A DNA stretch of 49,053 bases from Zoogloea sp. GTDB taxonomy: Bacteria; Pseudomonadota; Gammaproteobacteria; Burkholderiales; Rhodocyclaceae. Of this stretch, positions 7,531-31,133 are shown in pieces. A program made the translations under genes and the position numbers. The stretch is taken from positions 1 through 49,053 of the forward strand of contig NZ_JAFLDT010000024.1 in assembly GCF_017302315.1 (NCBI RefSeq), in the 5' to 3' direction. A model generated the notes under the pieces. The model was not told the DNA's origin. It did no database searches and saw only the letters and a list, made by a program, of their open reading frames with translations. Each line of letters opens with the position of its first letter. The first letter of the stretch is position 1.

Positions 7531-8685
7531 TCAGGCGTTCGAGACAGCAGTCACCGCCGTCACAAAATCCACACCCGGGTGGGTGGCCTGGTAATCCAGG
7601 GCGCGGGCACGCAGCGCGGCGGATTCGCCGTCCACGTGATAGCCGCGAGGGGCCGCAAAACTCACAGTGCCGGAGTCACCCCCGGCCGCCCGGGCGTTGG
7701 TGGCCACCTCCTCGGCAAACTCCGGCGCCACCGGCGCAGCCTGCAAGTAGCCGCGCACAGCATCAAGCAGCGGCGCCCTGGCATCGCCCTCGCCAAACTC
7801 CACGGGCTCAGCCTGGCTGGCGATGCAATCCAGCGTGGCCACCACCACATCACGATGGGCGGGCGGCAGCCGGCCGGCCGTCACCAGGCCATCGGCAAAC
7901 GCCACGTTGGCGGCATGGCGCTCGGCAGCGGCACGGGTGCGCGCCTCGGCGTCAGACGCAGCTACACGAGCACGCAGCGCAGCGTTCTCCGCCTCAAGGG
8001 CGGCTTTTTCTTCAGGGGTCACAGGGGTCTCCGGAGAGGACGGGTCAGAGAAGGCCGCCGCCGTGGGCGTGGCCGTGGGGGAATCTTCAGCAAGCTCTTC
8101 GTCGATCTCGCGCTGAGCCGCCCGCTCCAGGCCCTCGACGAGATACGAGGGCACAACCTGGTCGGCTTCATCCACGCCAAACTTGCCCAGCACCCACTCA
8201 CGCAGCCGGCGCCACAGGCCGGCGTTGTCGGCATCGTCCCAGGCCGAGAACTCGACAATGCCCGCATCGTCGGCAGCAAACTCCGGCGTGCGCAGGCCCT
8301 TCAGGGCCGGGGGCTGGGCACCCAGAAAGCCGACATGGCGCAGGTAATAGGCGCCGGGGACGGGGTTGGCAGGAGCATCCGGCGCCCAGAAGCTGGCGCT
8401 GATGTGCGCGAAGCGCTTGTTGTTTACGAGCTCGGCAAACTCGGGCTCCACATCAGCCGGGGTGGCCTCAATACCGATGGCCGAAAACGTGATGCCATCC
8501 ACCCAGCCGTAGGCCGGGGCATCGACGCGGGGGTGCCCCACAACGAGCGGTGCTCGCCACTTGGCCGGGTCGTACGCCAGGCAGGTGGCCTGCAGGTCGG
8601 ATTCAGAAAACGAGATCGCCGCGCCCGACATCGCCGTGTGGCGGCCGGGGCGGAAGATGTGGAGGGGTTTGGCGGTGGAGTGCAT
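7531..8685 (-). CDS. Prohead protease/scaffold (Mu gpI-like)
   Basis: The 384-residue protein has an N-terminal protease domain (residues about 20-175, with APLVVGHPRVDAPAYGWVDG and FAHISASFWAP, giving the expected His and Ser-containing segments) and a C-terminal scaffold region with coiled coil at about 225-285 (EEKAALEAENAALRARVAA). Mu protein I and its relatives have the same layout. It cleaves itself and scaffold during prohead maturation. No gpG gene lies upstream as it would in Mu; instead a 195-base gap and a cargo gene are found. No obvious Shine-Dalgarno precedes the ATG at 8685, and the Met 18 residues in is a possible alternative. Confidence 0.85.
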   Translation of the reverse strand: MHSTAKPLHIFRPGRHTAMSGAAISFSESDLQATCLAYDPAKWRAPLVVGHPRVDAPAYGWVDGITFSAIGIEATPADVEPEFAELVNNKRFAHISASFWAPDAPANPVPGAYYLRHVGFLGAQPPALKGLRTPEFAADDAGIVEFSAWDDADNAGLWRRLREWVLGKFGVDEADQVVPSYLVEGLERAAQREIDEELAEDSPTATPTAAAFSDPSSPETPVTPEEKAALEAENAALRARVAASDAEARTRAAAERHAANVAFADGLVTAGRLPPAHRDVVVATLDCIASQAEPVEFGEGDARAPLLDAVRGYLQAAPVAPEFAEEVATNARAAGGDSGTVSFAAPRGYHVDGESAALRARALDYQATHPGVDFVTAVTAVSNA

Positions 8686-8791
8686 GCCCGCAGTTTCGCG
8701 GGCGCGCGGGGCGATTCGGAGGGGGGAGGGTGCCCCCAGTGCCGGGGGGGGGGAACTAGAGGGGGACGAGCGGGGCGGAAAGGCTCGGCGA

Positions 8792-8807
8792 GCGGTTTAT
8801 AAACCGC
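8792..8807. promoter_or_regulatory. 16-bp perfect palindrome upstream of the head operon
   Basis: GCGGTTTATAAACCGC is perfectly symmetrical and lies in the 195-base gap between the protease gene and the upstream cargo gene. It has an AT-rich centre in a GC-rich gap and could be an operator. A run of ten G residues (8744-8753) and other G-runs lie between it and the protease start. Confidence 0.4.
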
Positions 8808-8880
8808 GTGGCGGGCCCGTAGCAGGCTCGCCCAGGGAAGCGCGGGCGTCAGTGGTGGAAAAACGCGCCCCGGGCGTCAG

Positions 8881-9774
8881 TTACTTGATCACACTCCTTA
8901 GCATGATGTGATGGGGAATCAACTTCACTCCATCCTTGTCAAGGGCATAGTAAATAGATATGTCAGCTCGGACCTTGAGTTTTCCCGCCACGTCGATAGG
9001 GCTTACTCCATCCGCCAACTCAAGCTTGATACGGCGGTCGATCTTTCCCGGCAACAGCGCTGCCCAGCCGCTTCTTGCGCTATCAAGGTTTGTCGCCCGA
9101 ATTTCCAAGTCGACATCCAGCATGTGCTCAACCTTCTGCTGAACCTCGATCTCCACAGTCTTTGGCGTGGCCTTGACGACATCTGGTGGAAACACGAGCC
9201 CACTGCTTTCATCGAATGTAATGCTGGCTTGACTATCCAACCGGGCTGGTTTCAACACTTTCACAGCACTATTTGCCAGCGCTTTCTTATCAACTACCGC
9301 AGCCTCGACGATCGCCTTGAAAGCCTCTGGCGTCAAATCCACCTGTCCAGCCCCAAGGTTGATGATCACGTTATTGTTCGCAGTGATCGTTGTTGTGGCA
9401 GCCCCTTTCTGAGCCGTTGCAGCCAAATAGGCACCGTAACCTACCAAGGCAGTCAAGACCGATCCGATCAAAATATTGCGCGCCATAGGCTTCTCCAACT
9501 TGCCTCGTACCTTGTCCAGAAAGGCGTTCAAATCATCTTCGGACTTGAAAAACAGCTTGATCAGCACGGTCTCCATCAAGCTACCGGTCTCTAGGTGCTC
9601 GACAAAGATCTCCACGCGATCAATCTCGACTCCCGTGAGCCCATGCAATACCCGTGGGCTCATCCGGATCACCTGTTCAAGGCCCAATAGGGAATCTACG
9701 ATCTCCCGGATAGGGACAGGCTCGCGGTTCGAATAATAGACTTGGTGAGTAGTCGAAAAAACAAAACTGGTCAT
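8881..9774 (-). CDS. Low-GC membrane-anchored cargo protein of unknown function
   Basis: A 297-residue protein I cannot assign. Residues 1-95 form a mixed alpha/beta domain. A single membrane segment spans about 100-120 (ILIGSVLTALVGYGAYLAAT). It is followed by NNNVIINLGAGQVDLTPEAF and a C-terminal beta-rich domain to 297. G+C is much lower (near 50%) than in neighbouring phage genes, a sign of separate acquisition. It sits at the junction between the regulatory genes and the head operon. Superinfection exclusion or another lysogenic-conversion role is possible but is only inference from location. Confidence 0.7.
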   Translation of the reverse strand: MTSFVFSTTHQVYYSNREPVPIREIVDSLLGLEQVIRMSPRVLHGLTGVEIDRVEIFVEHLETGSLMETVLIKLFFKSEDDLNAFLDKVRGKLEKPMARNILIGSVLTALVGYGAYLAATAQKGAATTTITANNNVIINLGAGQVDLTPEAFKAIVEAAVVDKKALANSAVKVLKPARLDSQASITFDESSGLVFPPDVVKATPKTVEIEVQQKVEHMLDVDLEIRATNLDSARSGWAALLPGKIDRRIKLELADGVSPIDVAGKLKVRADISIYYALDKDGVKLIPHHIMLRSVIK

Positions 9775-9844
9775 GCGGATCTAGGCTTTCACTTGATTTC
9801 TGGAGAACGGGCGGCATAACAGCGCTCGCCCAGGGTAGATACAC

Positions 9845-10282
9845 TCACTTCGAGAAGCACTCTGAAAAGTGCTGCGCCTCGTACTCCTTCTTGCGCCTGT
9901 CGGCATCGTCGCGGTAGCGCTGCGTCACGTACAGCTCGCGCTCATGATCTGCCGCCTTGGCCCGGGCCTGGTAGCCCGAGCACTTCGACTCGTGGCGGGC
10001 TTCTGCCGCCGCCCGCTGCGATCGCTCGACCCGTCGTTCCATTTCCAACTGGGCGTGCTCCCGGTCAATCTCGGCCACGCCGCGGCGATCTGCCTGCGCG
10101 CGCCGTTGGGCTTCCAGCCGATCACGGCGGCTGGGCTGATGCACGTTGAGCTCAACGACCCTGGTCTTGTCCCCGCACGGCACTTCCGAATAGGTGGTCA
10201 CACCGCCGGTTATGCACTTGAACACCTGGGCGCCGGCAGGCGTGGCGCTGGCCAGCAGGATCATCGACAACAGCACGCGCAT
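9845..10282 (-). CDS. DUF4124-like exported protein
   Basis: A 145-residue protein with a signal peptide (MRVLLSMILLASATPAGA, cleavage after GA) and then VFKCITGGVTTYSEVPC, the DUF4124 pattern with two cysteines likely forming a disulfide. The remainder is a highly charged Arg/Glu/Ala helix (about 60-145), probably coiled coil. Its ATG overlaps the stop of the upstream gene (TGATG), so the two are coupled. DUF4124 proteins are mostly bacterial periplasmic proteins of unknown role, so this looks like a host-derived gene within the phage. Confidence 0.75.
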   Translation of the reverse strand: MRVLLSMILLASATPAGAQVFKCITGGVTTYSEVPCGDKTRVVELNVHQPSRRDRLEAQRRAQADRRGVAEIDREHAQLEMERRVERSQRAAAEARHESKCSGYQARAKAADHERELYVTQRYRDDADRRKKEYEAQHFSECFSK

Positions 10283-10653
10283 CAGCGCCCTCCCAGGATC
10301 ACATTCACAACCCTGGGGTTTGGCATCAGTGCCACCCCCAGGATCAGGGCAATCACGCTCCATATGACCACGGTGATCGCCACCACGCCGCCGGCCATCA
10401 CTATTACAGCGATCAGCCTGCCAAGCCATCCGTAGTACCCGGCCCAAGCCCATGCGCGGTCGAGCAGCCCTGTCCAGGTTGAGTGAAGGCGCCGCTCCAG
10501 GTGCAGCCGACTTTCGGCCACTACCCGCAGCTCTTCGCGCCGGGCCCGAACGGACGGGTCAAATTTGTCATAGATCAGATGGCACCTGGGGCATACCCCG
10601 GCGGGGCCGGCATCCCGGGCTTGCCGGGTGTAGCTGCATTGCGGGCACTGCAT
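10282..10653 (-). CDS. Zinc-ribbon membrane protein
   Basis: A 123-residue protein beginning MQCPQCSYTRQ, with CPQC at 3-6 and CPRC at 22-25, so a four-Cys zinc ribbon. A basic helical linker follows, then hydrophobic segments at about 80-108 (LIAVIVMAGGVVAITVVIWSVIALILGVAL) that could cross the membrane once or twice. It starts directly after the TAG of the 58-residue gene and overlaps the DUF4124 gene, so the three form one transcription unit behind the repressor. Function is unknown. Confidence 0.7.
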   Translation of the reverse strand: MQCPQCSYTRQARDAGPAGVCPRCHLIYDKFDPSVRARREELRVVAESRLHLERRLHSTWTGLLDRAWAWAGYYGWLGRLIAVIVMAGGVVAITVVIWSVIALILGVALMPNPRVVNVILGGR

Positions 10654-10830: not shown

Positions 10831-10880
10831 AGCATCCTCCGTGAGCTGCGCCTGATGCTATGCAAATTTCAGAAAAATCG

Positions 10881-11549: not shown

Positions 11550-11574
11550 ACATCCCTTGCCTGTTCATATAAAT

Positions 11575-11590: not shown

Positions 11591-11647
11591 ATCACACAAC
11601 GCACCTTGCGTTGCGATCACAGCGATTCACAAACCGGAGCCCTTCCC

Positions 11648-12853: not shown

Positions 12854-13885
12854 ATGGGACGCACACCCACACCTCGCACCAACACTGAACCCGCCGTCAT
12901 CGTGAATGATGAGGCCGTGGCCGAGGGCCATGCTGCACTGACAGAGCTGGCTACCATCGAACGGGATCACGAGGCCGCTGTGCGCCAACTGGCCCTCCGG
13001 GTTGGCTACATGCTGCCCGCAGACTGTACCGATCCGGATCTGATTCAGCGCGATATCGCGGCAAACATGCGCCGGTCTGTGGAGTCGTGCTTCGAAGTCG
13101 GCCGCGGCTTGGCAGTACTCAAGCAAGCCTGCGAGCACGGCCAGTTCCTTCCCCGCCTTGAGGATCTTGGAATAGATCACAGCGTTGCGAAGCGCTTCAT
13201 GCAGGCTGCTTTCAAGTTCTCAAATGGTGCGACGTCGCACCATTTGACCAAGGCAATAGGCTCCCAATCCAAGCTCTTCGAGCTGCTCGTCCTCGACGAT
13301 GACCAAACCGAAGAGCTTGAACAGACGGGCCAGACCGGCAGCCTGACCCTTGACGATGTGGCCAGCATGTCGGTGAAGGAGCTCCGTGCCGCCCTGCGTA
13401 AGGAACGCGACACCCGCAAGGCCGAGAAAGACAAGCTCGACGCCACCCACAAAGCCGACCTGCAGGCCAAGGACCGCTTGATGGCCAGCGTGCGCGAACG
13501 TGCCAACAAGGCCGAGGAGAAGCTCGCCCAGCTCGAAACCCACGGCGTCCCCGCTGACGCGCGCCTCAACGAACTCACCGGTGACATCCACAGCCTGGGC
13601 AAGAAGGCCGATGACGCCCTGATCCTGGTCGAACGCATTCTCGAAGCCATCGACCAGGTGGTCACCGACATCTTCGACCGGCCGGAGCACGACCGCCCCG
13701 ACACCAAAGGTGCGGTCGCCCTGGTGCAGCGCGCCCGTGACCAAGGCTTCCGCCTGGCCTCCACGGTGGGCCGCATCCAGGCCATCGTCGATAACTGCCT
13801 GCTGCCGCAGATCGAAGCGCGGGAGATGTACCAGCCCTACACGGCCGAAGACGGCCGCGTGCTGGGCGATGAGGTTGTGGGCTGA
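12854..13885 (+). CDS. DUF3102-like coiled-coil protein
   Basis: The 343-residue protein has an N-terminal helical domain (residues about 30-150) with CFEVGRGLAVLKQACEHGQF and LGIDHSVAKRFMQAAFKFSN, then SQSKLFELLVLDDDQ, as in DUF3102 proteins of Mu-like phages and plasmids. A long charged coiled coil follows (about 180-235, RKERDTRKAEKDKLDATHK), then a helical tail. Function is unproven; relatives are sometimes linked to partition or replication. The gene contains the 28-bp perfect palindrome at 13220-13247. It directly precedes the transposase gene. Confidence 0.75.
   Translation: MGRTPTPRTNTEPAVIVNDEAVAEGHAALTELATIERDHEAAVRQLALRVGYMLPADCTDPDLIQRDIAANMRRSVESCFEVGRGLAVLKQACEHGQFLPRLEDLGIDHSVAKRFMQAAFKFSNGATSHHLTKAIGSQSKLFELLVLDDDQTEELEQTGQTGSLTLDDVASMSVKELRAALRKERDTRKAEKDKLDATHKADLQAKDRLMASVRERANKAEEKLAQLETHGVPADARLNELTGDIHSLGKKADDALILVERILEAIDQVVTDIFDRPEHDRPDTKGAVALVQRARDQGFRLASTVGRIQAIVDNCLLPQIEAREMYQPYTAEDGRVLGDEVVG
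13220..13247. repeat. 28-bp perfect palindrome inside a coding region
   Basis: Each 14-base half (first half TCAAATGGTGCGAC) is the exact reverse complement of the other, with no spacer; the centre is between 13233 and 13234. It codes for SNGATSHHLT in the DUF3102-like gene. Chance occurrence of such a site in 49 kb is unlikely. It could be a binding site for that protein or another regulator. Confidence 0.85.
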
Positions 13886-13895
13886 GGAGCGCGCC

Positions 13896-15662
13896 ATGGG
13901 ATCCCTGCAACCCTGCTCCATGGAAGCCATGCGCGACCTGGCCCGCCGCCTGGAGGACGCCGGCCACGGCGACCGCACGGCGCTGATCTCCGACGCGGCC
14001 GGCCACTACGGCATCAGCCGTCAAACCCTCTACCGCAAGCTCAGCGAAGTGGGCTGGACGAGCGGCCGCAAGGCCCGCGCCGACAAGGGCACCACCAGCG
14101 TGAGCGAGAGCGCCCTGGTGGCCCTGGCTGGCATGCAGAAGGTGGCCGTGCGCGACAACGCCAAGCAGACCCTGCATACCCCGCTGGCCGTGAGCCTGGC
14201 AGACACCAGCGGCATCGAAGTCCCCGTGGGCGCGACTCAGGTCAACCGGCTGCTGCGCGCCCGGCGGATGGATGTGAAGAGCCAACGCATGGAGCGGCCG
14301 GTTACCGATCTGCGGGCTCCGCACCCCAACCACACGCACCAGGTAGATCCGAGCCTGTGCCTGGTGTACTACCTGCGTGGCCACCAATACATCATGGACG
14401 AGCGCAAGTTCTACAAGAACAAGCTCGAGAACTTTGCCAAGGTGAAGCTCAAGGTGTGGCGCTACACCGGCTACGAGAAGGCCAGCGGCATCATCGGTGC
14501 GCGTTACTACGAGGCCGCCGGGGAGAACCAGCGCAACCTCTTCGACTTTCTCACCTGGTTGTGGAGCAAGAAGCCCGGCATCAGCTGGTGGGGCGTACCC
14601 AAGGTGTTGCTGTGGGACAAGGGCAGCGCCAACTCTGCCGGCGCCATCCAGAACTTTCTGCAGGCCCTGGAAGTAACTGCCATTGCCCACGAGGCCGGCA
14701 ATGCGCGCGCCAAGGGTGGCGTGGAGAACGCCAACAACCTGGTGGAAACCCAGTTTGAAAGCCGGCTGCGCTTCTCGCCCGTCGATACCGTTGAGGAACT
14801 CAATGCCGCAGCGGAGCTGTGGCAAGAGGCCTACAACGCCAACAGCCTGCCCAAGCTGGATACCCGCATCCGGCGGGATGGCATCCCGCCCTCAGTGCGG
14901 TACGCCCTGTGGCAAAAGATCCGCGCCGAGCAGCTCCGCGAGCTGCCAGACATCGAGCTCTGCCGGGCCTACCTGCTGGGCAAGGAAGACACGCGCAAGG
15001 TCCGCCCGAACCTCACCATCAGCTACCGCCACCCGCAGGCGGACGCGGTGCACAAGTACGACGTGGATGCCCTGCCTGGCGTAGTGGCGGGCTGCGAAGT
15101 GGAGGTGCGCCCCCTGGTGTTCGGCCACCTGGCCATCCAGATCACCGTGCCCCGGTACGACGGCGAGGCGCTGCACTACCGCCTGGAGCCCACCCGCGAA
15201 TACGACGAGTTCGGGCAAGTGCTCACCGCCCCGATCCCCGGCGAGTCCTACGCCAGCAAAGCCCACACCGACATCGAACGCGCCGCGCGCGCCATCGACC
15301 TTGCCACCTGGGGCACTGCCAACCGGGAAGAGGCCAAAAAAGCCAAGGACAGGGGCGACACGCCCTTTGCCACCACCACGCCCATCAACAGCCTGGCGCA
15401 CCTGGCAGACATCCCCCGCGCCAACTGGATGCCGCGCAAGGGCACACCCATCGAGCTGGCTCACCGGCTGGTGGAGGAGCAGCCCCTGGGCGTGGCCGAG
15501 GCCTGCAAGGCGCTGATTGCCCGGGGCGTGGCCGGTGACGGCCTTTACCCCCGCATTGCCCAACGCTACCCGGAAGGTGTGCCCCCGGGCGACCTGGATG
15601 CCCTGGTGGCCGAGCTGCTTGGAAAGACTGCCACACCGCTACGCGCTGTAGCGGGTGGCTGA
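13896..15662 (+). CDS. MuA-type DDE transposase
   Basis: The 588-residue protein begins MGSLQPCSMEAM after GAGGAG. Residues 1-60 hold a helix-turn-helix (AAGHYGISRQTLYRKLSEVGW) that would contact the phage ends. The integrase core (about 145-300) has candidate catalytic acids D151 (HQVDPSLCLV), D241 (VLLWDKGSAN) and E277 (KGGVENANNLVET), with 35 residues between the last two. A beta-barrel-like domain (about 380-460) and a MuB-interacting C-terminal tail follow, as in MuA. It catalyses end cleavage and strand transfer for both integration and replicative transposition. It is slightly shorter than MuA (663 residues). Confidence 0.93.
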   Translation: MGSLQPCSMEAMRDLARRLEDAGHGDRTALISDAAGHYGISRQTLYRKLSEVGWTSGRKARADKGTTSVSESALVALAGMQKVAVRDNAKQTLHTPLAVSLADTSGIEVPVGATQVNRLLRARRMDVKSQRMERPVTDLRAPHPNHTHQVDPSLCLVYYLRGHQYIMDERKFYKNKLENFAKVKLKVWRYTGYEKASGIIGARYYEAAGENQRNLFDFLTWLWSKKPGISWWGVPKVLLWDKGSANSAGAIQNFLQALEVTAIAHEAGNARAKGGVENANNLVETQFESRLRFSPVDTVEELNAAAELWQEAYNANSLPKLDTRIRRDGIPPSVRYALWQKIRAEQLRELPDIELCRAYLLGKEDTRKVRPNLTISYRHPQADAVHKYDVDALPGVVAGCEVEVRPLVFGHLAIQITVPRYDGEALHYRLEPTREYDEFGQVLTAPIPGESYASKAHTDIERAARAIDLATWGTANREEAKKAKDRGDTPFATTTPINSLAHLADIPRANWMPRKGTPIELAHRLVEEQPLGVAEACKALIARGVAGDGLYPRIAQRYPEGVPPGDLDALVAELLGKTATPLRAVAGG

Positions 15663-15669
15663 AGAAGGT

Positions 15670-15717
15670 GGGCCGCCCGGCTGGCACCGGACGGCCCGAT
15701 TGGAGGGTTACCCCTCC
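15670..15717 (+). promoter_or_regulatory. Two tandem hairpins between transposase and MuB genes
   Basis: GGGCCG-C-CCGG (loop CTGGCA) CCGG-A-CGGCCC at 15670-15697 is followed by GGAGGG-TTAC-CCCTCC at 15702-15717. Neither is followed by a U-run. They could attenuate transcription or stabilise separate mRNAs, tuning the ratio of the two transposition proteins. Confidence 0.5.
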
Positions 15718-15740
15718 GGTACATGCAAGGAGAAGTCTAC

Positions 15741-17011: not shown

Positions 17012-17434
17012 ATGCAACTCACCACCCACCGCCCCACCCGTGCCGGCTGGTACTGGGCCCAGATCCCCGGAAACCGGCCCCTGCAGCCCGTGCTGGTGTT
17101 TGAAGGGGGAGAAGGCTTCGGCCTGCTCTACACCTGGGACGCCATCGACCAGGACCACAGCGACGCCGACCGCGACGGCCTGCCCGTCGATCTCTCGGCC
17201 CCGTCCATGCTCTGGAGCGAGGCCCCCATCCCCGCACCCACCAGCCGGGCCGGCATGGCCCCGGCGCAGCGCGCCGTGCTGGGCATCGTCATGGCCTTTG
17301 GCCTGGGCGTGCTCGTCACCCTCGACCGGGCCGAGGCCGACACCGCCGCCCGCGTCACCGCTGTCATGCAGTCCTGCGCCGACCCGCTCCCTGCGGGCCG
17401 GGCCCTCATCGCCGCCCAAGGAGCCGAGCAATGA
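17012..17434 (+). CDS. Early protein with possible C-terminal membrane segment
   Basis: A 140-residue protein starting MQLTTHRPTRAGWYWAQIPG. The PTRAGWYWA opening and tryptophan-rich first 70 residues look like small phage-borne domains that begin T-x-x-G-W-Y-W. Residues about 84-103 (QRAVLGIVMAFGLGVLVTL) may span the membrane. The stop overlaps the next gene (ATGA). No function is known. Confidence 0.6.
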   Translation: MQLTTHRPTRAGWYWAQIPGNRPLQPVLVFEGGEGFGLLYTWDAIDQDHSDADRDGLPVDLSAPSMLWSEAPIPAPTSRAGMAPAQRAVLGIVMAFGLGVLVTLDRAEADTAARVTAVMQSCADPLPAGRALIAAQGAEQ

Positions 17435-19508: not shown

Positions 19509-19516
19509 GGCCCGAC

Positions 19517-20181: not shown

Positions 20182-20404
20182 CGACAAAGACATGAACATC
20201 GGGGATCACCTTTCCGTCGGCCATGCACTACACCAGGAGACCGGCGAGCACGCTGTATTCATCCATATACGTGATGGCGAGGAGACGATTGCGAAGTCCA
20301 TGATGTCCCCCACCACCGCCAGAGCCATCGCCGAAGATCTGCTTTACTTTGCTGCCGCCGTTGATGCTGCCCAGGAGGCTGACAATGCCATCCATCGCCA
20401 CTGA
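20174..20404 (+). CDS. Small acidic early protein
   Basis: A 76-residue acidic protein starting MADDKDMNIGDHLSVGH, with HAVFIHIRDGEETIAKS and a C-terminal helix. It overlaps the genes on each side, and its end overlaps the GemA-like start by 20 bases. No function is known. Confidence 0.55.
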   Translation: MADDKDMNIGDHLSVGHALHQETGEHAVFIHIRDGEETIAKSMMSPTTARAIAEDLLYFAAAVDAAQEADNAIHRH

Positions 20405-22384: not shown

Positions 22385-22407
22385 AGCAATCCTTGTCAGT
22401 TCCCCCC

Positions 22408-22433
22408 AAAGCCCCGCCCTTGAGCGGGGCTTT
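22408..22433 (+). terminator. Rho-independent-type terminator ending the early/middle operon
   Basis: AAAGCCCCGC, loop CCTTGA, GCGGGGCTTT, followed by GTCATTC: a 10-bp stem whose outer A:U pairs supply the U-run. A second hairpin, CTGGGGG-CGCCTT-CCCCCAG (22440-22459), follows at once. The next gene starts at 22528, so the late/lysis promoter should lie between 22460 and 22527. Confidence 0.8.
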
Positions 22434-22527
22434 GTCATTCTGGGGGCGCCTTCCCCCAGGGCAAGCCCTCCGCGCGCACGCGAAGATGGGGCACAACGCA
22501 ATCAACACCCATCAGGAGCCGCCCAGA

Positions 22528-22965
22528 ATGAGCATCCGTTTTACCCTCAAGTTCACCGACGCTGGCCCGTGCGACGACGATCTGATCGTCAGCGCGCACC
22601 ACGTTGACACCACGGGCGGCTGGTTCGAGCACCCCATCCGCGATCACAAGCTGCGCGTCGACCATCCCGAGCACTTGCTCGCCCACGTCGCCCTGGGGTT
22701 TGTTGTGCATCGGGGCAATCGCAACATGCTCACGCTGTTGATATCCCACGACGATCCGGGCATGGCCCACGGCCTTGAGGTGGTTTGCATCAGCCCCGAG
22801 CCCGGTGAAGCCCTGCTGCCCGGCGCCGACGCCCCGGCCCCCGCAGCAGTTGTCGACCGCTTTGTGATCAAACCGGGTCGCCGGGACGTGCTCCCCGTGT
22901 TTTGCAGCCACGTGCGCATCCGCGAAGTGCTCATGAGCGAGGTGCCCCATGCCGAGGGCAACTAA
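22528..22965 (+). CDS. First gene of the lysis/late unit, unknown function
   Basis: The 145-residue protein starts MSIRFTLKFTDAGPCDDDL with ribosome binding site ATCAGGAGCC. It has a beta-rich N-terminal half and a C-terminal half with VVDRFVIKPGRRDVLPVF. It is located where Mu-like phages often have the C activator or endolysin, but it shows neither an HTH nor lysozyme, peptidase or transglycosylase motifs. Its end overlaps the holin-like gene. Confidence 0.6.
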   Translation: MSIRFTLKFTDAGPCDDDLIVSAHHVDTTGGWFEHPIRDHKLRVDHPEHLLAHVALGFVVHRGNRNMLTLLISHDDPGMAHGLEVVCISPEPGEALLPGADAPAPAAVVDRFVIKPGRRDVLPVFCSHVRIREVLMSEVPHAEGN

Positions 22966-23170
22966 ACAGGCCAGCAAGATCTGGTGGCGCAGCCGAACGC
23001 TCCAGGTCAATGCGCTGGCGGCAGGGCTGGTGGCCCTCGAAGCCGGCACGGGGCTGCTCCAGCCCCTGGTGGGTGATCGCTTTTATATGGCGGTTGCGGT
23101 GGGGTTGCCCGTCATTAACGCAATGCTGCGCGTGGTGACACGGCAGGCGCTCACCCGGCGGAGGGGCTGA
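22949..23170 (+). CDS. Holin-like membrane protein
   Basis: A 73-residue protein with a basic N-terminus (PRATKQASKIWWRSRTLQV) and two hydrophobic helices (NALAAGLVALEAGTGLLQPL and FYMAVAVGLPVINAMLRVV). The pattern K-x-WW-x-S-x-T-L...NAL...EAxxGLLQP...GLPxxNAxLR is that of a common phage holin-type family (DUF7940-like, from memory). It sits directly before an Rz-like gene, which supports a role in permeabilising the inner membrane. Confidence 0.75.
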   Translation: MPRATKQASKIWWRSRTLQVNALAAGLVALEAGTGLLQPLVGDRFYMAVAVGLPVINAMLRVVTRQALTRRRG

Positions 23171-23171
23171 T

Positions 23172-23426
23172 GTGCGCTACACCTGGCGCGCCGCCCTGGT
23201 TGCCGCTGCCCTTGTTCTGGCCCTGGCTGTGGGCCGGGGCTTGTACGACGGCATATATGAGAGCGGCCGGCGTGCGTGCGCCAATCAACACACCCAACTG
23301 GCGGACGCCGCTGCTCGCAGAGCATGTGCGGCGGCTGAAGCTCAGGCAACCCGAAACCTTGCGACCGCAAAAGCGCAAACAGCGGCGTGCCTCGCCCGCC
23401 TGACTCACCTCGATATCGCACCATGA
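23172..23426 (+). CDS. Rz-like i-spanin
   Basis: A short protein (84 residues) with a GTG start at 23172. It has one N-terminal membrane segment (AALVAAALVLALAVGRGLY) followed by a periplasmic helical domain rich in Ala, Arg and Gln (ADAAARRACAAAEAQAT), the general form of an Rz i-spanin but shorter than the lambda protein (153). A nested frame at 23170-23403 with LWAGAC near residue 24 might be an Rz1-type lipoprotein; that is weak. It overlaps the zinc finger gene by 4 bases. Confidence 0.6.
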   Translation: MRYTWRAALVAAALVLALAVGRGLYDGIYESGRRACANQHTQLADAAARRACAAAEAQATRNLATAKAQTAACLARLTHLDIAP

Positions 23427-23674
23427 CCGACACCGCCGACCGCGCCGCCCAGCGCGAAGCCGAATTCACCGGAGACGCCCTCGAGGCGCATCACAGACAC
23501 AACCCCACCGCGGGCAAGACGGTGGCAGACAGCGCACGCGAGTGCGACGGCTGCGGCTGCCAGATCCCCGAAGCGCGCCGCGCCGCGGTGCCGGGCGTGC
23601 GCCTGTGCACCGAGTGCCAGGAAGACGCCAACTGGATTGCCGATGCGGCACGGCGGAATGGGAGGCGGGGATGA
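23423..23674 (+). CDS. TraR/DksA-type zinc finger protein
   Basis: An 83-residue protein with a four-cysteine zinc finger: C41/C44 (CDGC) and C62/C65 (CTEC), separated by QIPEARRAAVPGVRL, which is the standard DksA/TraR C-terminal zinc finger (IPxxRxxAxPGxxxCxxCQ). The N-terminal half is a short helix. Such proteins bind RNA polymerase near its secondary channel and can shift host transcription. They are common between the lysis and terminase genes of Mu relatives. An extra Cys at 46 is not part of the motif. Confidence 0.85.
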   Translation: MTDTADRAAQREAEFTGDALEAHHRHNPTAGKTVADSARECDGCGCQIPEARRAAVPGVRLCTECQEDANWIADAARRNGRRG

Positions 23675-24048
23675 ACGTTGTGCAGCTGGATCTCTGGCAC
23701 CTCATCACGCTGCTGCTGGCTTTTTTCGGGGCAGTCGCGGGCTTCGGAAAGCTCTTGCTCGGCCAGGTCGAGAAACGCCTGGTTGAACGCTTTGCAGCCC
23801 AGGACGCGGCGCGAGAGGTGACGCAGAAACACTGGGACGACCAGTTCGACAAACTTGAACGGGCTTCCAAGGAAGAGTCGGGCCACTGGCTTCAGATCGA
23901 ACGGGATCTGATGAGCCTGAAAGCAGACCTGCCCGTGCAGTACGTGCGCCGCGAAGACTACGTGCGCAACCAGACCGTCCTCGAAGCCAAGCTCGACGCC
24001 GTGGCCGTCCGCATCGAAAACATCCAGCTCAGGAGCAACAACGCATGA
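23671..24048 (+). CDS. DUF2730-like membrane coiled-coil protein (Mu gp25 position)
   Basis: A 125-residue protein with an N-terminal membrane segment (LDLWHLITLLLAFFGAVAGFGKLLL) and a long coiled coil (about 35-125). The ATG overlaps the upstream TGA. Mu gp25 (DUF2730) has the same design and position before gp26 and the small terminase. Its role in the phage is not established; a spanin-like or assembly role has been considered for such proteins. Confidence 0.72.
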   Translation: MNVVQLDLWHLITLLLAFFGAVAGFGKLLLGQVEKRLVERFAAQDAAREVTQKHWDDQFDKLERASKEESGHWLQIERDLMSLKADLPVQYVRREDYVRNQTVLEAKLDAVAVRIENIQLRSNNA

Positions 24049-24359
24049 CGATTGATCAAGCCAAGGTCCGGCGCGAAGGCATGCGCTGGAACATCCTCAA
24101 CACGCTGGACAAGGCCCGGCCCTACACCACCAACGAGCAGTTTCTCGGCGACGTACTGCGCGCGATCTACCCGGACGTGACGCCCGACGAGACGCGCAAG
24201 CAGCTCGACTACCTGGCCGACCGCAAGCTGGTTGACCTGCGCAAGGAGCCCAGCGGAACCTGGTTCGCCGACCTGACACGCTACGGCGTGGACATCGTGG
24301 AATACACGGTGGATTGCCAGCCGGGCATTGCCCGCCCGGTCAAGTACTGGGCCGGCTGA
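24045..24359 (+). CDS. Mu gp26-like protein
   Basis: A 104-residue protein starting MTIDQAKVRREGMRWNILN. The segment LNTLDKARPYTTNEQFLGDVLRAIYPDVTP followed by LDYLADRKLVDLRKEP looks like a winged helix and is typical of the gp26-type gene in front of the small terminase. It overlaps the previous gene and is 1 base from the next. It may act in packaging initiation; this is inferred from place. Confidence 0.72.
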   Translation: MTIDQAKVRREGMRWNILNTLDKARPYTTNEQFLGDVLRAIYPDVTPDETRKQLDYLADRKLVDLRKEPSGTWFADLTRYGVDIVEYTVDCQPGIARPVKYWAG

Positions 24360-24360
24360 C

Positions 24361-24927
24361 ATGGCTCCCCGCGCCAAGATCGAGGGCCTGCCCGAAGACG
24401 TGCGCCGCTGGCTGGAGCGCGCGCTCACCGGCGGCGGCTTCTCCGGCTACGAAGCCCTGGAGGGCATGCTCCGCGACAAGGGCTACCAGATCAGCAAGAG
24501 CGCCATTCATCGCTACGGGCAGAAAATCGAACGGCGTTTTGCGGCCATCAAGGCCAGCACCGAGGCCGCCCGGATGCTCACCGAGGGCGCGGCAGATGAC
24601 CAGGATGCACGCTCGGAGGCAGTGATTGCCCTGGTGCAGACCGAGCTGTTCGACAGCATCATCAATCTGCAGGAGGCCAGCGAAGAAGATCTGCCCGCAG
24701 AGGATCGCATCGGCCTGCTCTCCGCTGCTGCGAAGAACATCGCCACGCTCACCCGGGCGTCGGTCAATCTCAAGAAATTCCAGTCCGAGATGCGCGCGCA
24801 GATCGCGAAGGAAGAGCGCGAGCGGCTGCTCGAAGAGCAGAAGGCCAAGCTCGACGCCATGGGCAGTAAGGGCGGCGTGACGGAAGAGACCAAGCGGGCG
24901 ATCCGCGAGGCACTGGGGATCGTGTAA
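24361..24927 (+). CDS. Small terminase subunit (DUF3486, Mu gp27-like)
   Basis: The 188-residue helical protein begins MAPRAKIEGLPEDVRRWLER. PEDVRRWLERALTGGGFSGYEALEGMLRDKGYQISKSAIHRYG is the DUF3486 N-terminal DNA-binding domain. A long central coiled coil follows and a C-terminal helix (TKRAIREALGIV). Small terminases recognise the phage DNA end and load the large subunit; Mu-type phages package host DNA flanking the prophage. The stop overlaps the large terminase start (TAATG). Confidence 0.87.
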   Translation: MAPRAKIEGLPEDVRRWLERALTGGGFSGYEALEGMLRDKGYQISKSAIHRYGQKIERRFAAIKASTEAARMLTEGAADDQDARSEAVIALVQTELFDSIINLQEASEEDLPAEDRIGLLSAAAKNIATLTRASVNLKKFQSEMRAQIAKEERERLLEEQKAKLDAMGSKGGVTEETKRAIREALGIV

Positions 24928-26351
24928 TGGCCAAGCTCAAGGGCCGCGCCAAGATCATCCCGGCCAACCCCGATGCCATCTTTCTGCCGTTTCAGTCCAA
25001 GTGGATCAAGGACACGTCGCGCATCAAGCTCATGGAGAAGTCGCGCCAGATCGGTATCAGCTGGTCTACGGCCTATGGATCCGACGAGCGCACGGCCGCA
25101 CAAGGGGCCCGCCACGATGAGTGGGTGAGCAGCCGTGACGACATTCAGGCGCGGCTCTTCATCGAGGACTGCAAGCTGTGGGCCGGCATCATGAACATGG
25201 CCGCCAAGGATCTCGGCGAAGTCGTCATTGATGCGGAGAAGAAGCTGAGTGCGTACGTGCTCCAGTTTGCGTCCGGCAAGCGCATCCACAGCATGTCAAG
25301 CAACCCCGACGCCCAGGCCGGCAAGCGCGGCAGCCGGATTCTGGACGAATTTGCCCTGCATGCTGATCAGCGAAAAATGTGGGCAATTGCCTACCCGGGT
25401 ATCACCTGGGGTGGCTGCATGGAGCTGGTGAGCACGCACCGCGGATCGAACAGCTTCTTCAACGGGCTGATCCGGGAGGTGCGCGAGAAGGGCAACCCCA
25501 AGCGCATCAGCCTGCACCGCGTGACCCTGCAGGACGCCCTCGACCAGGGTTTCCTCTACAAGCTCCAGCAAGCTCTCCCGGAGGATGCGGAGCAGCAGGA
25601 GATGGACGAAGCCGCCTACTTCGACTTCACCAGGTCCGGCGCCGCCGACGAAGAATCGTTTGATCAGGAATACATGTGCATTCCGGCGGACGACGATAGC
25701 AAGTTCATCGAGTACGAGCTGATCACAGGCTGCGAGTACTTGGCCGGAATGCCTTGGGAGCGGGATGTTTCCGACACCTTTGCCGGGCCGCTGTATTGCG
25801 GCGTGGACATCGGCCGAAAAAAGGATCTGACCGTTCTCTGGGTGGTGGAACGCCTGGGCGACGTGCTCCACACCCGCGCTGTCATCCCGATGGAGAAGAT
25901 GCGCAAGAGCGCACAGGAGGCGATCCTCTACCCCTGGTTTGCCCGCTGCGAGCGGATCTGCATTGACGCCACCGGCCTGGGCATCGGATGGGCGGATGAC
26001 GCCCAGGACAAGTTCGGCACCAGCCGCGTTGAGGCGGTAACCTTCTCCGCCCAGGTGAAGGAAGCACTCGCTTACCCGCTCAAGGGCGCGATGGAAGACC
26101 GCAAGCTCCGCATCCCTGACGACCCCCTGATCCGTGCTGATTTGCGCAAGGTCCAGAAGGTCACCACTGGCGCCGGGAACATCCGCTTCGTCGCAGAGAG
26201 CACGCCCGATGGCCACGCCGACCGCTTCTGGGCGTTGGCCCTGGCCATTGAAGCCGCCTCCACGGCATCCGGCCCCGTCCATGTCGGCAGCCATGCCACA
26301 AGCCACCCCCGCCACGCCTCCCACTCCCGCACCGACCTCTCGGGCTACTGA
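24927..26351 (+). CDS. Large terminase subunit (Mu gp28-like)
   Basis: The 474-residue protein contains the ATPase domain (Walker A-like EKSRQIGIS at 37-45, Walker B ILDEFA at 138-143) and an RNase H-like nuclease domain with candidate metal ligands D294 (CGVDIGRKKD), D347 (ICIDATGLG) and D432 (DGHADRFWALALA). The order and motifs match Mu-like large terminases. It drives DNA into the prohead and cuts it by headful. The Walker A lysine/GKS pattern is degenerate, as usual in this family. The portal gene follows after 2 bases. Confidence 0.93.
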   Translation: MAKLKGRAKIIPANPDAIFLPFQSKWIKDTSRIKLMEKSRQIGISWSTAYGSDERTAAQGARHDEWVSSRDDIQARLFIEDCKLWAGIMNMAAKDLGEVVIDAEKKLSAYVLQFASGKRIHSMSSNPDAQAGKRGSRILDEFALHADQRKMWAIAYPGITWGGCMELVSTHRGSNSFFNGLIREVREKGNPKRISLHRVTLQDALDQGFLYKLQQALPEDAEQQEMDEAAYFDFTRSGAADEESFDQEYMCIPADDDSKFIEYELITGCEYLAGMPWERDVSDTFAGPLYCGVDIGRKKDLTVLWVVERLGDVLHTRAVIPMEKMRKSAQEAILYPWFARCERICIDATGLGIGWADDAQDKFGTSRVEAVTFSAQVKEALAYPLKGAMEDRKLRIPDDPLIRADLRKVQKVTTGAGNIRFVAESTPDGHADRFWALALAIEAASTASGPVHVGSHATSHPRHASHSRTDLSGY

Positions 26352-26353
26352 CA

Positions 26354-27793
26354 ATGGCACGCCTACTCTCCGACGAAATCGCAACCCGCGCCCGGTCGCT
26401 GGACTTCACCTTCGGCAACATGCTGCTGCCCAACCCTGACCCGGTGCTGCGCGCCCGTGGCCAGCACATCCGCGTGTATCGCGATCTGCGTGTCGACGCC
26501 CACGTCGGCGGCTGCGTCCGGCGCCGCAAGAGCGCCGTCAAAGCGCTCCAGTGGGGGCTGGACCGCGGCCAGTCGCCGGCCCGCGTGCACAAGAGCATCG
26601 AGAGCCTGCTGGCCGACCTGCCCATGGACCAGATCATCGGCGAGGCGCTCAACGCCGTTTTGTACGGCTACCAGCCCATGGAGATCATGTGGCAGTCCCG
26701 CGGCGCCATGTGGGTGCCCGAGAACGTAGTGGGCAAGCCCCCGGAATGGTTCGGTTTCGACACAGACAACCAGCTGCGCTTCAAGACCCGCGACAACCAG
26801 CTGCAGGGCGAGCTGCTGCCCGATAGAAAGTTTTTGCTGCCCCGGCAGGACGCGACCTACGACAACCCCTACGGGTTTGCCGACCTATCCATGTGCTACT
26901 GGCCCATCGTGTTTAAGAAGGGCGGGCAGAAGTTCTGGCTGCGCTTCTCTGAAAAGTACGGCGGCACATTCATGGTCGGCAAGCTCCCCCGCACGGCCGA
27001 ACAGTCCGACCACGACAAGCTGCTCGAGCAGCTCGACGCGCTGATCCAGGACGGCGTGGGCACCATCCCCGACGACGGCAGCGTCGAGCCCCTGGAGTCC
27101 GGCTCCAAGGCCGCAAGCGCCGATCTGTACGAGCGCCTGGTGATGTTCTGCCGCAGCGAAGTATCCATCGCGCTCACCGGCACAAACCAGACCACCGAGG
27201 CCAACAGCAACAAGGCCAGCGCCAGCGCCGGGCTGGAAGTGGCCGATGACCTCCGCGACGGCGACGCCGAGGTGATCACCGAGGCGGTGAACACCCTGAT
27301 CAAGTGGGTGGTGGAGCGCAACTGGGCCAGCGCCCAGGCTCCGCGCTTCGAGATGTGGGATCAGGAAGCCAAGGACAAGCTGCAAGCCGACCGCGACGCC
27401 AGCAACGCCAAGGCCGGGGCCAAGTTCACAAACAAGTACTGGATGCGCGCCTACGGCTACGAAGAGGGCGACCTCGCCGAGTCCGCTCCGCCCGCAACCG
27501 CGCTTGCAGCACCGCCCCTCGCGCCGGTGTCATTCGCCGAATCCGGTACCGCAGACCCCACCCCGGTCACCCGCCTGGCGACCCAGCTCGCCGAGCAAGC
27601 CGGCCCCGCGTGGAATGCAGTACTCGACCAGGTGCGCACCCTGGTCGCCAGCGCCGACAGCCTGGCCGCGCTCGACCAGGCCCTGCTCAACGCGTTTTCC
27701 GAACTGCCCGGCGACCAGCTGGCGAGCGTGATGCAGACGGCCTACCAGGTGGCGGAGTTGGCGGGGCGGTTTGATGTGCAGAGCGAGGGTTGA
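26354..27793 (+). CDS. Portal protein (DUF935, Mu gp29-like)
   Basis: The 479-residue protein has the DUF935 signature: NPDPVLRARGQHIRVYRDLR near the start, VDAHVGGCVRRRKSAVKALQW, KFLLPRQDATYDNPYG and WPIVFKKGGQKFW. The dodecameric portal ring forms the DNA entry channel and tail attachment site. The last 100 residues are Ala/Pro-rich and helical, corresponding to a C-terminal barrel. Length is close to that of Mu gp29 (512). Confidence 0.92.
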   Translation: MARLLSDEIATRARSLDFTFGNMLLPNPDPVLRARGQHIRVYRDLRVDAHVGGCVRRRKSAVKALQWGLDRGQSPARVHKSIESLLADLPMDQIIGEALNAVLYGYQPMEIMWQSRGAMWVPENVVGKPPEWFGFDTDNQLRFKTRDNQLQGELLPDRKFLLPRQDATYDNPYGFADLSMCYWPIVFKKGGQKFWLRFSEKYGGTFMVGKLPRTAEQSDHDKLLEQLDALIQDGVGTIPDDGSVEPLESGSKAASADLYERLVMFCRSEVSIALTGTNQTTEANSNKASASAGLEVADDLRDGDAEVITEAVNTLIKWVVERNWASAQAPRFEMWDQEAKDKLQADRDASNAKAGAKFTNKYWMRAYGYEEGDLAESAPPATALAAPPLAPVSFAESGTADPTPVTRLATQLAEQAGPAWNAVLDQVRTLVASADSLAALDQALLNAFSELPGDQLASVMQTAYQVAELAGRFDVQSEG

Positions 27794-27796
27794 ATC

Positions 27797-28252
27797 ATGG
27801 CTGAACTTATCTTGACCGAAGAAGAGAAGGCCGCAGCGCTTTGGAGTGATCTGTCTGACGAAGCGCTGGGCAAACTGGTGAAGAAGAAAATTGCATTTCT
27901 TACTGCGGCGGCCGATCAGCTTGACCGCACAACCACCTTCGCTGCGGCGCTCCTGCTCTGCTGCAGCGCCGCCGAGAACAACAGTAAGTCGATGATGTTT
28001 GATATCGAGGGCGTGACGCAGGGGCATCGCGAATTTGGCGACTGGACGGTCAAGGTCGAAAAGCGAACTCACCCCCCAGAAATCAAGCCTGGTTCGTTAG
28101 TTGTGTACATGGGCGCCACCTATGAAGCCGTGGGCTACGGCGACATGCCCGGCACGTTCGACATCGTCCTGTACCCCGACTGTATGGCTGGAGACCGGTT
28201 TCGCAACGTGCCCGCCAGCGCCCTGAAACTCACATCGAAGAGCGGGGAATGA
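27797..28252 (+). CDS. Cargo protein inserted between portal and gpF
   Basis: A 151-residue protein starting MAELILTEEEKAAALWSDLS. The N-terminal half is helical with a hydrophobic stretch (TTFAAALLLCCSAAE); the second half is beta-rich (GSLVVYMGATYEAVGYGDMPGTFDIVLYP). In Mu the portal gene is followed directly by gpF, so this gene and the next are insertions. G+C is a little lower than the flanks. No function is recognised. Confidence 0.6.
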   Translation: MAELILTEEEKAAALWSDLSDEALGKLVKKKIAFLTAAADQLDRTTTFAAALLLCCSAAENNSKSMMFDIEGVTQGHREFGDWTVKVEKRTHPPEIKPGSLVVYMGATYEAVGYGDMPGTFDIVLYPDCMAGDRFRNVPASALKLTSKSGE

Positions 28253-28647
28253 TGAACACACAGATCGTCGGTGGCCACGTGGCCATCGTTCTCGCAATCG
28301 CCTTGCTGATCACGCTCGTAGCACTGCTGATCCATCGCTTCCGCGCCCGCCGCAAGGCCCGCCAAGCCCCCGCACCCGCGCCAGCGCGCCACAGCCGAAG
28401 CGGCCCCGTGGGGTCGAATTCATTCGACCACTCCGCCGGCCGCAGCACCTACCCGGCGTCATCGTCACCCGACGACAGCTTCCCAACACCGGCCATGCTC
28501 TGGTCCCGCACAAGCGCCCCGGAGCTCACCGGTGGCGGGGGCGAGTTCTCGGGCGCTGGCGCAAGCGGAAGCTGGGACAGCCCATCGTGCAGCAGCAGCT
28601 CCGACAGCAGCTCGTCGAGCAGCTGCAGCTCTTCATCGTCCGACTGA
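28249..28647 (+). CDS. Single-pass membrane protein with Ser-rich tail
   Basis: A 132-residue protein with one N-terminal membrane helix (HVAIVLAIALLITLVALLI), a basic stop-transfer segment (HRFRARRKARQ), then a low-complexity region ending GGGGEFSGAGASGSWDS and a run of serines (the last 25 residues are mostly Ser/Asp/Cys). It overlaps the preceding gene by 4 bases. Similar Gly/Ser tails occur on bacterial membrane proteins; function here is unknown. It may start at either of two adjacent ATGs (28249 or 28252). Confidence 0.6.
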   Translation: MMNTQIVGGHVAIVLAIALLITLVALLIHRFRARRKARQAPAPAPARHSRSGPVGSNSFDHSAGRSTYPASSSPDDSFPTPAMLWSRTSAPELTGGGGEFSGAGASGSWDSPSCSSSSDSSSSSSCSSSSSD

Positions 28648-28650
28648 TCC

Positions 28651-29475
28651 ATGACCCCCTCCGCCCGCATCGGCTTCAACCAGCCTTTCCCCGAGCAGCT
28701 CGCTTTCTTTTCCAAGAAGGTCAGCCTGCCCACGGATGCCTTGGACGCCATCACCAAGGCCCAGCACGATCACGCCTTCGTCGTGGCCGGCGCCATGCGG
28801 GCAGATCTGCTCAACGACCTGCATGAGGCCGTCACCCAGGCCATCGCCGAGGGCGGCACAATCGCTCAGTTCCGCACCCAGTTCGATGAGATCGTTTCCC
28901 GCCACGGCTGGGAAGGCTGGGTCGGGTCCGACAGCAAAGCCGGCCGCACCTGGCGCACCCGCGTCATCTACCAAACCAACATGGCCACCAGCTACAGCGC
29001 CGGCCGCTGGGCCCAGCTCAACGATCCGGATCTGCTCGCCGAGCGCCCCTACTGGCGCTACGTCCACGCCGATGGCGTCGCAAGCCCGCGGCCGCTGCAC
29101 CTGGCCTGGGGCCAATCCCGCCTCACGCTGCCCCACGACCACCCCTGGTGGAAAACCCACTACCCGCCCAACGGCTTCGGCTGCCACTGCTACGTGATCG
29201 CCGTCCGCGGCCCCAAGCCCGGCGATGCCACCCTACCGCCCATCGGCTGGGACGCACTCAACAGCCGCACCGGCGAGCTGCCCGGCATCGACAAGGGCTG
29301 GGGCTACGCCCCCGGCGCCACCGCCGCCGATCCGCTCGGCCTGGCGCGCGTCGTCGCAGACAAGTCCCGCAGCCTGCCCTTCGAGCTGGCCGCCGACTTT
29401 CTCGCCGAGGTGAAGGGTGGAGTAGAGCCAGGCCTGTGGGCCGAAGTCGAACGCTACTTGGCCAGCACCCGATGA
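28651..29475 (+). CDS. gpF-like minor head protein
   Basis: The 274-residue protein has the Phage_Mu_F/SPP1 gp7 pattern: FSKKVSLPTDALDAI, GWVGSDSKAGRTWRTRVIYQTNMATSYSAGR, then RYVHADGVASPRPLHLAWG and the Cys/His segment NGFGCHCYV. Proteins of this family enter the head with the portal and act in DNA ejection or morphogenesis. It ends overlapping gpG by 4 bases. At 274 residues it is shorter than Mu gpF (about 430), lacking part of the C-terminus. Confidence 0.87.
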   Translation: MTPSARIGFNQPFPEQLAFFSKKVSLPTDALDAITKAQHDHAFVVAGAMRADLLNDLHEAVTQAIAEGGTIAQFRTQFDEIVSRHGWEGWVGSDSKAGRTWRTRVIYQTNMATSYSAGRWAQLNDPDLLAERPYWRYVHADGVASPRPLHLAWGQSRLTLPHDHPWWKTHYPPNGFGCHCYVIAVRGPKPGDATLPPIGWDALNSRTGELPGIDKGWGYAPGATAADPLGLARVVADKSRSLPFELAADFLAEVKGGVEPGLWAEVERYLASTR

Positions 29476-29996
29476 CCGCCTTTGACGTCACCATCCGCGA
29501 CTCGGCCGCCCAGGCCGTCCTCGATCAGCTTGCACAGCGCGCAACCAACTTGCGCCCGGCGCTGCTCGAGATCGGCGAAGACATCCTGGCGATCACAAAG
29601 GGCGCCTTCGCCGCCAGCACAAGCCCCTGGGGCGAGCGCTGGGCCCCCAACACCGAGGCCACCATCCTGGCCCACCTGGCAAAGTTTTCGGGCAGCTACA
29701 GCAAGCGCACCGGCCGCATCACCGCCGCCGGCTCCCGCCGCACGATCAACAAAAAGCCCCTGATCGGCGAGACCCGCTCGCTCGTCGGCGAGATCTACAG
29801 CCGAGTAGACGGCAACACGCTCACGGTTGGCAGTCCCATGGTCTATGCCGCCATCCATCAATTCGGCGGCCGCGCCGGCAAGGGCAAAAAGGTCGAGATC
29901 CCCGCACGCCCCTTCCTGCCCGCCGAAGACACCGGCGGCCTCGCCCCGGTGGCTCAGGCGGCAGTGATGGACGTGCTGGAGCGCTGGCTGACATGA
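29472..29996 (+). CDS. gpG-like virion morphogenesis protein
   Basis: The 174-residue protein starts MTAFDVTIRDSAAQAVLDQL. PALLEIGEDILAITKGAFAASTSPWGERWAPN and, towards the end, GSPMVYAAIHQFGGRAG...IPARPFLP are the hallmarks of Mu protein G/tail-completion S-type proteins. It takes part in head-tail joining or tail completion. In Mu relatives the protease/scaffold gene (gpI) comes next; here a DUF5131 gene follows and the morphogenesis series stops. Confidence 0.9.
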   Translation: MTAFDVTIRDSAAQAVLDQLAQRATNLRPALLEIGEDILAITKGAFAASTSPWGERWAPNTEATILAHLAKFSGSYSKRTGRITAAGSRRTINKKPLIGETRSLVGEIYSRVDGNTLTVGSPMVYAAIHQFGGRAGKGKKVEIPARPFLPAEDTGGLAPVAQAAVMDVLERWLT

Positions 29997-30035
29997 GATT
30001 TGCGGCGTCAACGTCGCATAGACAATGGAGAAAAC

Positions 30036-31133
30036 ATGGCTGACAAGAGCAAGATCGAATGGACTGATGCCACCTGGAACCCTGTTACTGGATGCGCAAA
30101 GGTCAGCCAGGGCTGCAAGCACTGCTACGCCGAGAGGGAGTGGCCACGCATGACGAAACTGGTGCCTGCCTATGCTGGCCGCGATTTCACAGACGTTCGG
30201 ACCCATGGCGACCGGCTTGATCAGCCTATTCGCTGGGCGAAGCGTCGCATGATCTTCGTCAATAGCATGTCCGACCTATTCCACCCGGCGGTGTCGGATG
30301 ACTTCATTGACTGCGTAGTAGGTGTCATGTGGGCATGCCTGTATGGTCGCAACGAGCAGCCCGGCCACGTGTTCCAGGTACTGACGAAGCGCGCTGACCG
30401 CATGCGCGCCTACTTCAACTCCGACCGACGTGAAGCATGGGCACGTGCAGCAGTTAATTACGGCGGCGGGATCGATCCGGACAGCCTGTGGGATCAGATC
30501 ATGGACTTTGACGGGCCGCACCCGCGCATCTGGCTCGGTGTCAGCGTCGAAGACCAAGCGGCGGCAAACGAGCGCATTCCGCTGCTTTTGGACACCCCAG
30601 CCGCTGTGCGCTGGATCAGTGCTGAGCCACTTCTGGGTTCGGTCGATATTTTCTCGACAATGACCGGAGAGCTTCTACACACCAGCGGAAACGAGTTTGA
30701 CCCTGGGTGGCTGAACTGGATCGTCGTCGGCGGCGAGTCCGGCCCGAAAGCCCGGCCGATGCACCCTGCGTGGGCTCGCAGCTTGCGCGACCAGTGTGCT
30801 ACTGCTGGAGTGCCCATGCTGTTTAAGCAGTGGGGTGAGTGGGTTCCTCGGAGCGACTGCTATCACACGTTCGATGACGGGAAATCCCTGGCCGACATTG
30901 ACCCCGGCGCAACGCGCTGGCCGTGCATCCGACTGAATGAAAACGGCGGCGACGGGAATCGATTGGAGGATGAAGATGGGGGAGACAGCGCCTATATGCA
31001 GCGTGTTGGCAAGAAACTCGCTGGCCGCCTCCTCGACGGCGTGCAGCACGACGGATATCCCTTCGACCACTCAGGCTCCCGGATTCGAAACCCCGAGAGC
31101 GCATCCCCCGAAACTAGTGAGAATTTGCTCTGA
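30036..31133 (+). CDS. DUF5131 (phage Gp37/Gp68 family) protein
   Basis: The 365-residue protein begins MADKSKIEWTDATWNPVTGC. IEWTDATWNPVTGCAKVSQG is the family signature. Three cysteines, C20, C27 and C30 (C-x6-C-x2-C), look like a metal or iron-sulfur ligand set similar to radical SAM proteins. Later segments include WLGVSVEDQAAANERIP, VRWISAEPLLG and WIVVGGESGPKARPMHP. Phage and plasmid members are often paired with a three-Cys-motif partner (TcmP); none is seen here. A DNA or nucleotide modification role is possible by analogy with Mu mom at the phage end, but unproven. G+C is lower than in gpG. Confidence 0.85.
   Translation: MADKSKIEWTDATWNPVTGCAKVSQGCKHCYAEREWPRMTKLVPAYAGRDFTDVRTHGDRLDQPIRWAKRRMIFVNSMSDLFHPAVSDDFIDCVVGVMWACLYGRNEQPGHVFQVLTKRADRMRAYFNSDRREAWARAAVNYGGGIDPDSLWDQIMDFDGPHPRIWLGVSVEDQAAANERIPLLLDTPAAVRWISAEPLLGSVDIFSTMTGELLHTSGNEFDPGWLNWIVVGGESGPKARPMHPAWARSLRDQCATAGVPMLFKQWGEWVPRSDCYHTFDDGKSLADIDPGATRWPCIRLNENGGDGNRLEDEDGGDSAYMQRVGKKLAGRLLDGVQHDGYPFDHSGSRIRNPESASPETSENLL

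Follow-up and report, generated by a model that had tools for sequence, protein, structure and literature searches.

Head genes divided between two divergent arms in an apparently complete Mu/B3-type prophage of Zoogloea sp.

In the transposable phage Mu all gene blocks read forward, and I, the protease gene, is the start of an independent late operon. In B3 the early block alone is reversed: the portal is on the same strand as the protease, 2.2 kb from it, and the transposase is on the opposite strand. In both maps gpG is followed by the protease on the same strand. According to the 2008 description of KS10, the capsid genes of this phage lie in two modules about 11 kb apart, an arrangement unique to the knowledge of its authors, and its first ~17 kb seem inverted relative to Mu (PMC2628397). 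For the transposable prophages of Leptospira, the 2021 report describes two divergent arms and variable positions of the head genes (PMC8705779); in its group TG1, by the published description, a TerS-TerL-portal block stands apart from the other structural genes, with the arms placed around regulatory genes (PMC8705779). Split head genes have been published already (KS10 in 2008, one Leptospira group in 2021), and the prophage described here is a further case.

The DNA analysed in this work (the window) is the entire contig C83, of 49,053 bases, from a Zoogloea sp. draft assembly of 165 contigs. The prophage extends from the contig start, where it is open on the left, to a right end at 31262, and thus beyond the range 7531..31133 given in the initial annotation. 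The genes for terminase, portal, gpF and gpG (24.3-30.0 kb) are read to the right, and those for protease, scaffold, capsid and tail to the left from 8685, with the repressor and the transposition genes sitting between these two halves. Unlike in Mu and B3, about 21 kb separate gpG, on the plus strand, from the protease, on the minus strand. Gene-family matches bear out what had been noticed from the letters alone, namely that gpG ends at 29996 on the plus strand and the protease starts at 8685 on the minus strand, with repressor, transposition and packaging genes in between.

The minus-strand head and tail arm, recognized by PHROG matches, occupies 1..8685 and continues on contig C6 (2641-11724). 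It comprises the protease (7531-8685; PHROG 976, E 4.5e-114, and no Pfam family), the scaffold (7145-7495), the capsid (6142-7077), the head-tail adaptor (2205-2738) and the major tail protein with an Ig-like domain (757-1530), all four likewise PHROG matches, and an open frame at the contig start (1-~400) that was judged by eye to be the start of the tape measure gene found on C6. Between capsid and adaptor, a 753-aa protein (3395-5656) matches nothing in Pfam, PHROG or PADLOC; its DNA has a lower GC content (0.57-0.58), and its first ~50 residues look, by eye, like the beginning of the protein encoded at this position in the related Zoogloea genome G094, whereas the rest differs. It may be a head fibre whose outer part can be exchanged. 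Three cargo genes, with no PADLOC match, occupy the minus strand between protease and repressor (8881..10653): a PHROG 4506 protein (8881-9774), a DUF4124 protein (9845-10453) and a small cysteine-motif protein (10282-10653). This slot is variable, as it holds a PIN-domain protein in Zoogloea ZOOG1 (L046:5333-6592) and a zinc-ribbon protein in G094; cargo placed beside the repressor might be expressed in lysogens. The CI-type repressor itself (10893-11549; PF07022, E 3.1e-6) is also on the minus strand.

The plus strand begins with a pair of early regulators matching PHROG 925 and HTH_11, a Ner-like HTH protein (11573-11848), homologous to the annotated Ner of phage Bise, and a second HTH protein (12544-12852). 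The transposition genes follow (12854..17009), with a PHROG 1748 protein, transposase A (frame 13710-15662, the true start not being fixed; PHROG 310, E 1.9e-68) and the ATPase B (15723-17009; PHROG 296, E 1.3e-55). The middle genes (17040..21436), assigned by family matches, include DUF3164, GemA (20349-21005) and a Mor-type activator (20948-21436). A probable lysis region (22393..24359) carries a lipoprotein of PHROG 462 (23542-24048); no endolysin could be named within it, and 22393-22965 has no Pfam match. The packaging arm (24328..29996), also assigned by family matches, consists of a Mu Gp27-type small terminase (TerS, 24328-24927), the large terminase (TerL, 24927-26351), the Mu portal (26354-27793), gpF (28651-29475) and gpG (about 29472-29996). 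The window thus holds the Mu/B3-type transposable-phage families transposase A, ATPase B, portal, gpG, GemA and Mor, and the frames of its named genes are uninterrupted. At the phage end lies a DUF5131 cargo gene on the plus strand (30000..31133; PF07505, E 3.5e-88), which matches the PADLOC candidates PDC-M41B and PDC-M30B. No match to it was found beside gpG in G094 or ZOOG1, and a homologue (51%) is present in the early region of another genome, G088.

The ends of the element are those of a transposable phage. It begins with TG at position 2641 of C6 and ends with CA at 31262 of the window, and the 6-bp target duplication TACCCC flanks it on both sides (31263..31268, and 2635-2640 of C6). 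Six bases is also the length reported for B3-type duplications (PMC8705779). G094 and ZOOG1 share the right terminus (31147..31262, plus strand, ending in TTCA, with GAGATAA present twice on the complementary strand): the conservation extends over about 115 bases and stops at 31262, beyond which the three sequences diverge. The host DNA (31269..49053) starts in a dispersed repeat and continues with DUF1329, DUF1302, MMPL and other genes. The repeat, counted from 31263, matches 13 other sites of the genome at E <= 2.5e-6, 11 of them starting at 31263 and two at 31265. When the two flanks were joined with a single TACCCC, they matched all seven host repeat copies fetched, as an empty site would. 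Five of these matches cover 119-120 of the 120 bases (84-96%), and the other two cover 105 and 93. The prophage lies within one copy (31263-31382) of this dispersed host repeat, whose core is an inverted repeat; similar repeat letters flank the ZOOG1 prophage, and the repeat may be a preferred insertion target.

The tail arm on C6 was traced through the host flank genes. The right-flank host DNA can be aligned to five related genomes from 31824-31864 on, and in three of these (G266, G269 and G232) a gene beginning MGKRVKM lies to the left of the matching locus, directly adjoining it in G232. In the genome of the window this gene is on C6, followed by leftward-reading phage genes, the last of which, the tape measure gene, is cut by the contig end; the open frame at the first bases of the window is on the same strand. 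Extending the sequence leftward to the other phage end, as had been proposed, accordingly located the missing part of the tail arm. C6 holds host genes and the tail end of the phage, with no second head module, and the protease has a single match in the genome. As no overlap of 15-59 bases was found between C6 and C83, a small gap in the tape measure gene is possible, and the element measures about 40.3 kb (9,084 + 31,262 bases) plus this possible gap. Searches of the same genome with window positions 1-200 returned only the window itself, and those with a 60-aa piece of the Sulfuriferula tape measure protein and with the PhageMin_Tail family returned no matches. Together, the termini, the one 6-bp duplication, the empty-site match and the adjacency of the flanking host genes in related genomes show that the element went in as a single transposon whose gene order was the present one.

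The same order was looked for, and found, in other prophages. In G094, of the same genus, gpG, gpF, portal, TerL, B and A share a strand, and repressor, protease, scaffold and capsid occupy the opposite one; protein identities to the window are 58% (gpG), 83% (gpF), 74% (portal), 82% (A) and 64% (protease). The G094 terminase, in contrast, is only 26-33% identical over two pieces, which indicates that modules have been exchanged. In G094 the host locus of the window is on a different contig from the phage, so this prophage sits at another site. Single contigs of Sulfuriferula multivorans TTN and of a Gallionella genome carry the complete order; a search for the Sulfuriferula target duplication gave 146 candidate pairs and no clear one. 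In ZOOG1 the two halves, gpG to B (gpG 85%) and A to capsid, are on two contigs whose directions agree. The ZOOG1 portal match (L220:13201-14067) is partial, and no terminase match was found between the portal and the lysis-region homologue; this copy may be deleted or misassembled there. A megablast of window positions 1-25000 against phage records gave no matches.

These comparisons bear on three other explanations. The first is that pieces of one or two collinear phages were misjoined during assembly, at 8.7-10.9 kb or at 29.9-31.2 kb. The assembly is a draft in 165 contigs, the prophage is broken within its tape measure gene and its right flank begins in a dispersed repeat, all of which would favour such an error; however, both junctions recur in the separately assembled G094, the order is also that of Sulfuriferula, Gallionella and phage Bise, and the conserved phage end and the target duplication stand at the right places. 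We therefore regard a chimera as very improbable, and the suspicion of faulty joins as unsupported. That the block of early and packaging genes was recently inverted within a collinear prophage, leaving it defective, appears equally remote. Most phages with a related protease are indeed collinear (120 of 160 loci, with 18 unclassed), but such an inversion would need one of its breakpoints at the phage end, whereas both ends and the duplication are intact, and the nearest phages keep the order at 58-83% identity (gpG, portal, gpF, protease) and at another site. Two partial prophages side by side, a packaging half and a protease-tail half, are the least credible reading of all: the cargo between the halves (8.9-10.7 kb) is variable and in part (DUF4124) not phage-like, but no named gene is duplicated between them, there is one pair of ends and one duplication, and, by eye, ZOOG1 carries a gene resembling the small cysteine-motif gene at this same position.

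Of the two possibilities left by the initial annotation, a natural mosaic order or a rearrangement that made the prophage defective or split, the former is the one that agrees with the recurrence of the order in diverged phages at other sites and in Bise, and with the single target duplication enclosing the whole element; intact termini and an order common to the relatives leave the latter without support. The split head-gene order is the native order of this phage and not damage. We are highly confident that a B3/Mu-type transposable prophage, about 40.3 kb long and apparently complete, is divided between C6 and C83, and that its native map consists of two divergent arms.

One arm carries the early and packaging genes and the other the repressor with protease, capsid and tail genes. 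We infer a functional prophage with the following promoters and timing. The repressor would hold the divergent early promoter; upon induction, the early block would produce transposase A and B and the Mor-type activator, and the two structural arms would then be expressed from separate late promoters. The head genes are cut just before the protease gene, and their products would meet in trans. Such a cut may be tolerated because it coincides with the start of the independent late operon (I) of Mu, each half being expressible alone. A simple scan of 8.4-12.0 kb found no sigma-70-like promoters (0.9 expected by shuffling) and two terminator-like sites (2.8 by chance), and hence lends no support to the operon-boundary explanation.

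The frequency of the arrangement was assessed at 160 loci collected with a protease profile, the best 80 of 151 from bacterial genomes and the best 80 of at least 589 from IMG/VR, some of which are one phage present twice. Packaging genes are beside the protease on the same strand at 120 loci. At 16, A and B face the protease and the interval showed no packaging genes; at six they run away from it, and 18 were unclassed. Four of the six (L045, L046, L051 and L091) have the packaging block as in the window. The remaining two, in Haemophilus quentini and an IMG/VR contig (L113 and L147), were first classed with the window and then not counted, as their packaging block was not located. Their proteases are very near those of collinear phages on the protease tree; with A and B facing away from such a protease, they are possibly recent rearrangements or neighbouring prophages. 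Among the 16 loci of the other orientation, nine resemble KS10, with the portal past the early block on the strand opposite the protease (for two of them assuming that contig numbers follow record numbers), and seven are without assignment.

A quick protease tree of 139 rows omitted the 18 unclassed loci, four proteases shorter than 280 aa, and Bise and KS10, which were dropped because of their long branches in a first tree, that of Bise being very long. The label adjacent or split changes 12 times on this tree, with at least eight changes forced by well supported branches; keeping only the 14 confirmed split rows, it changes seven times, four of them forced. Shuffled labels gave means of 21.6 and 13.5 changes, and none of 500 shuffles was as low. 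The arrangement is thus inherited, as there are fewer changes than in the shuffles, yet it has changed several times. The tree does not distinguish gain from loss of the split order.

Compared with the known phages, the window is closest in map to Bise (OR683401, deposited as a complete genome), whose block order and strands are exactly the same: gpG, gpF, portal, TerL, TerS, Mor, transposase and Ner on one strand, and CI repressor, protease, capsid and tail on the other, with packaging genes at one phage end and the tail at the other. The transposases are 41% identical and the tail-side ends share 18 of 24 bases, but Bise has tail sheath genes where the window has its Ig-like major tail protein, and a search with the window protease gave no match to that of Bise. 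Searches of open-licence papers turned up no description by name of this shared map, and no papers on phage Bise. Identities to B3 are 33% (transposase), 31% (portal) and 43% (protease). KS10 (NC_011216) resembles the window in that its gpF, portal and terminase genes are reversed, at one end and a long way from the protease and capsid genes; its early block, however, runs towards the protease, whereas that of the window runs with the packaging genes, and its gpG homologue is in the tail arm instead of the packaging arm, which shows that the cut need not fall precisely between gpG and protease. The Microcystis phage Mae-JY22 was given no map, as its record may be circularly permuted.

With the tail arm drawn rightward, four maps can be compared: all blocks forward (Mu), early block reversed (B3), packaging block reversed at the end while the early block is forward (KS10) and both reversed (Bise and the window). 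They differ in the orientation of blocks whose limits are the repressor/Ner switch, the site before the protease and the phage end, and flips of these blocks may be tolerated because they respect the pre-protease boundary. It is an evenly balanced proposition that this boundary and the repressor/Ner switch are two recurrent hinges, that flipping one or both yields four viable maps with several moves between adjacent and split orders, and that head assembly in this group does not need the head genes to be neighbours. The separation of gpG and protease is by itself no ground for calling such prophages rearranged or defective. The split held in 2008 to be unique to KS10, to the knowledge of its authors, recurs in several lineages, and the cut, which is a late-operon boundary in Mu, bears on the otherwise strong conservation of phage gene order.
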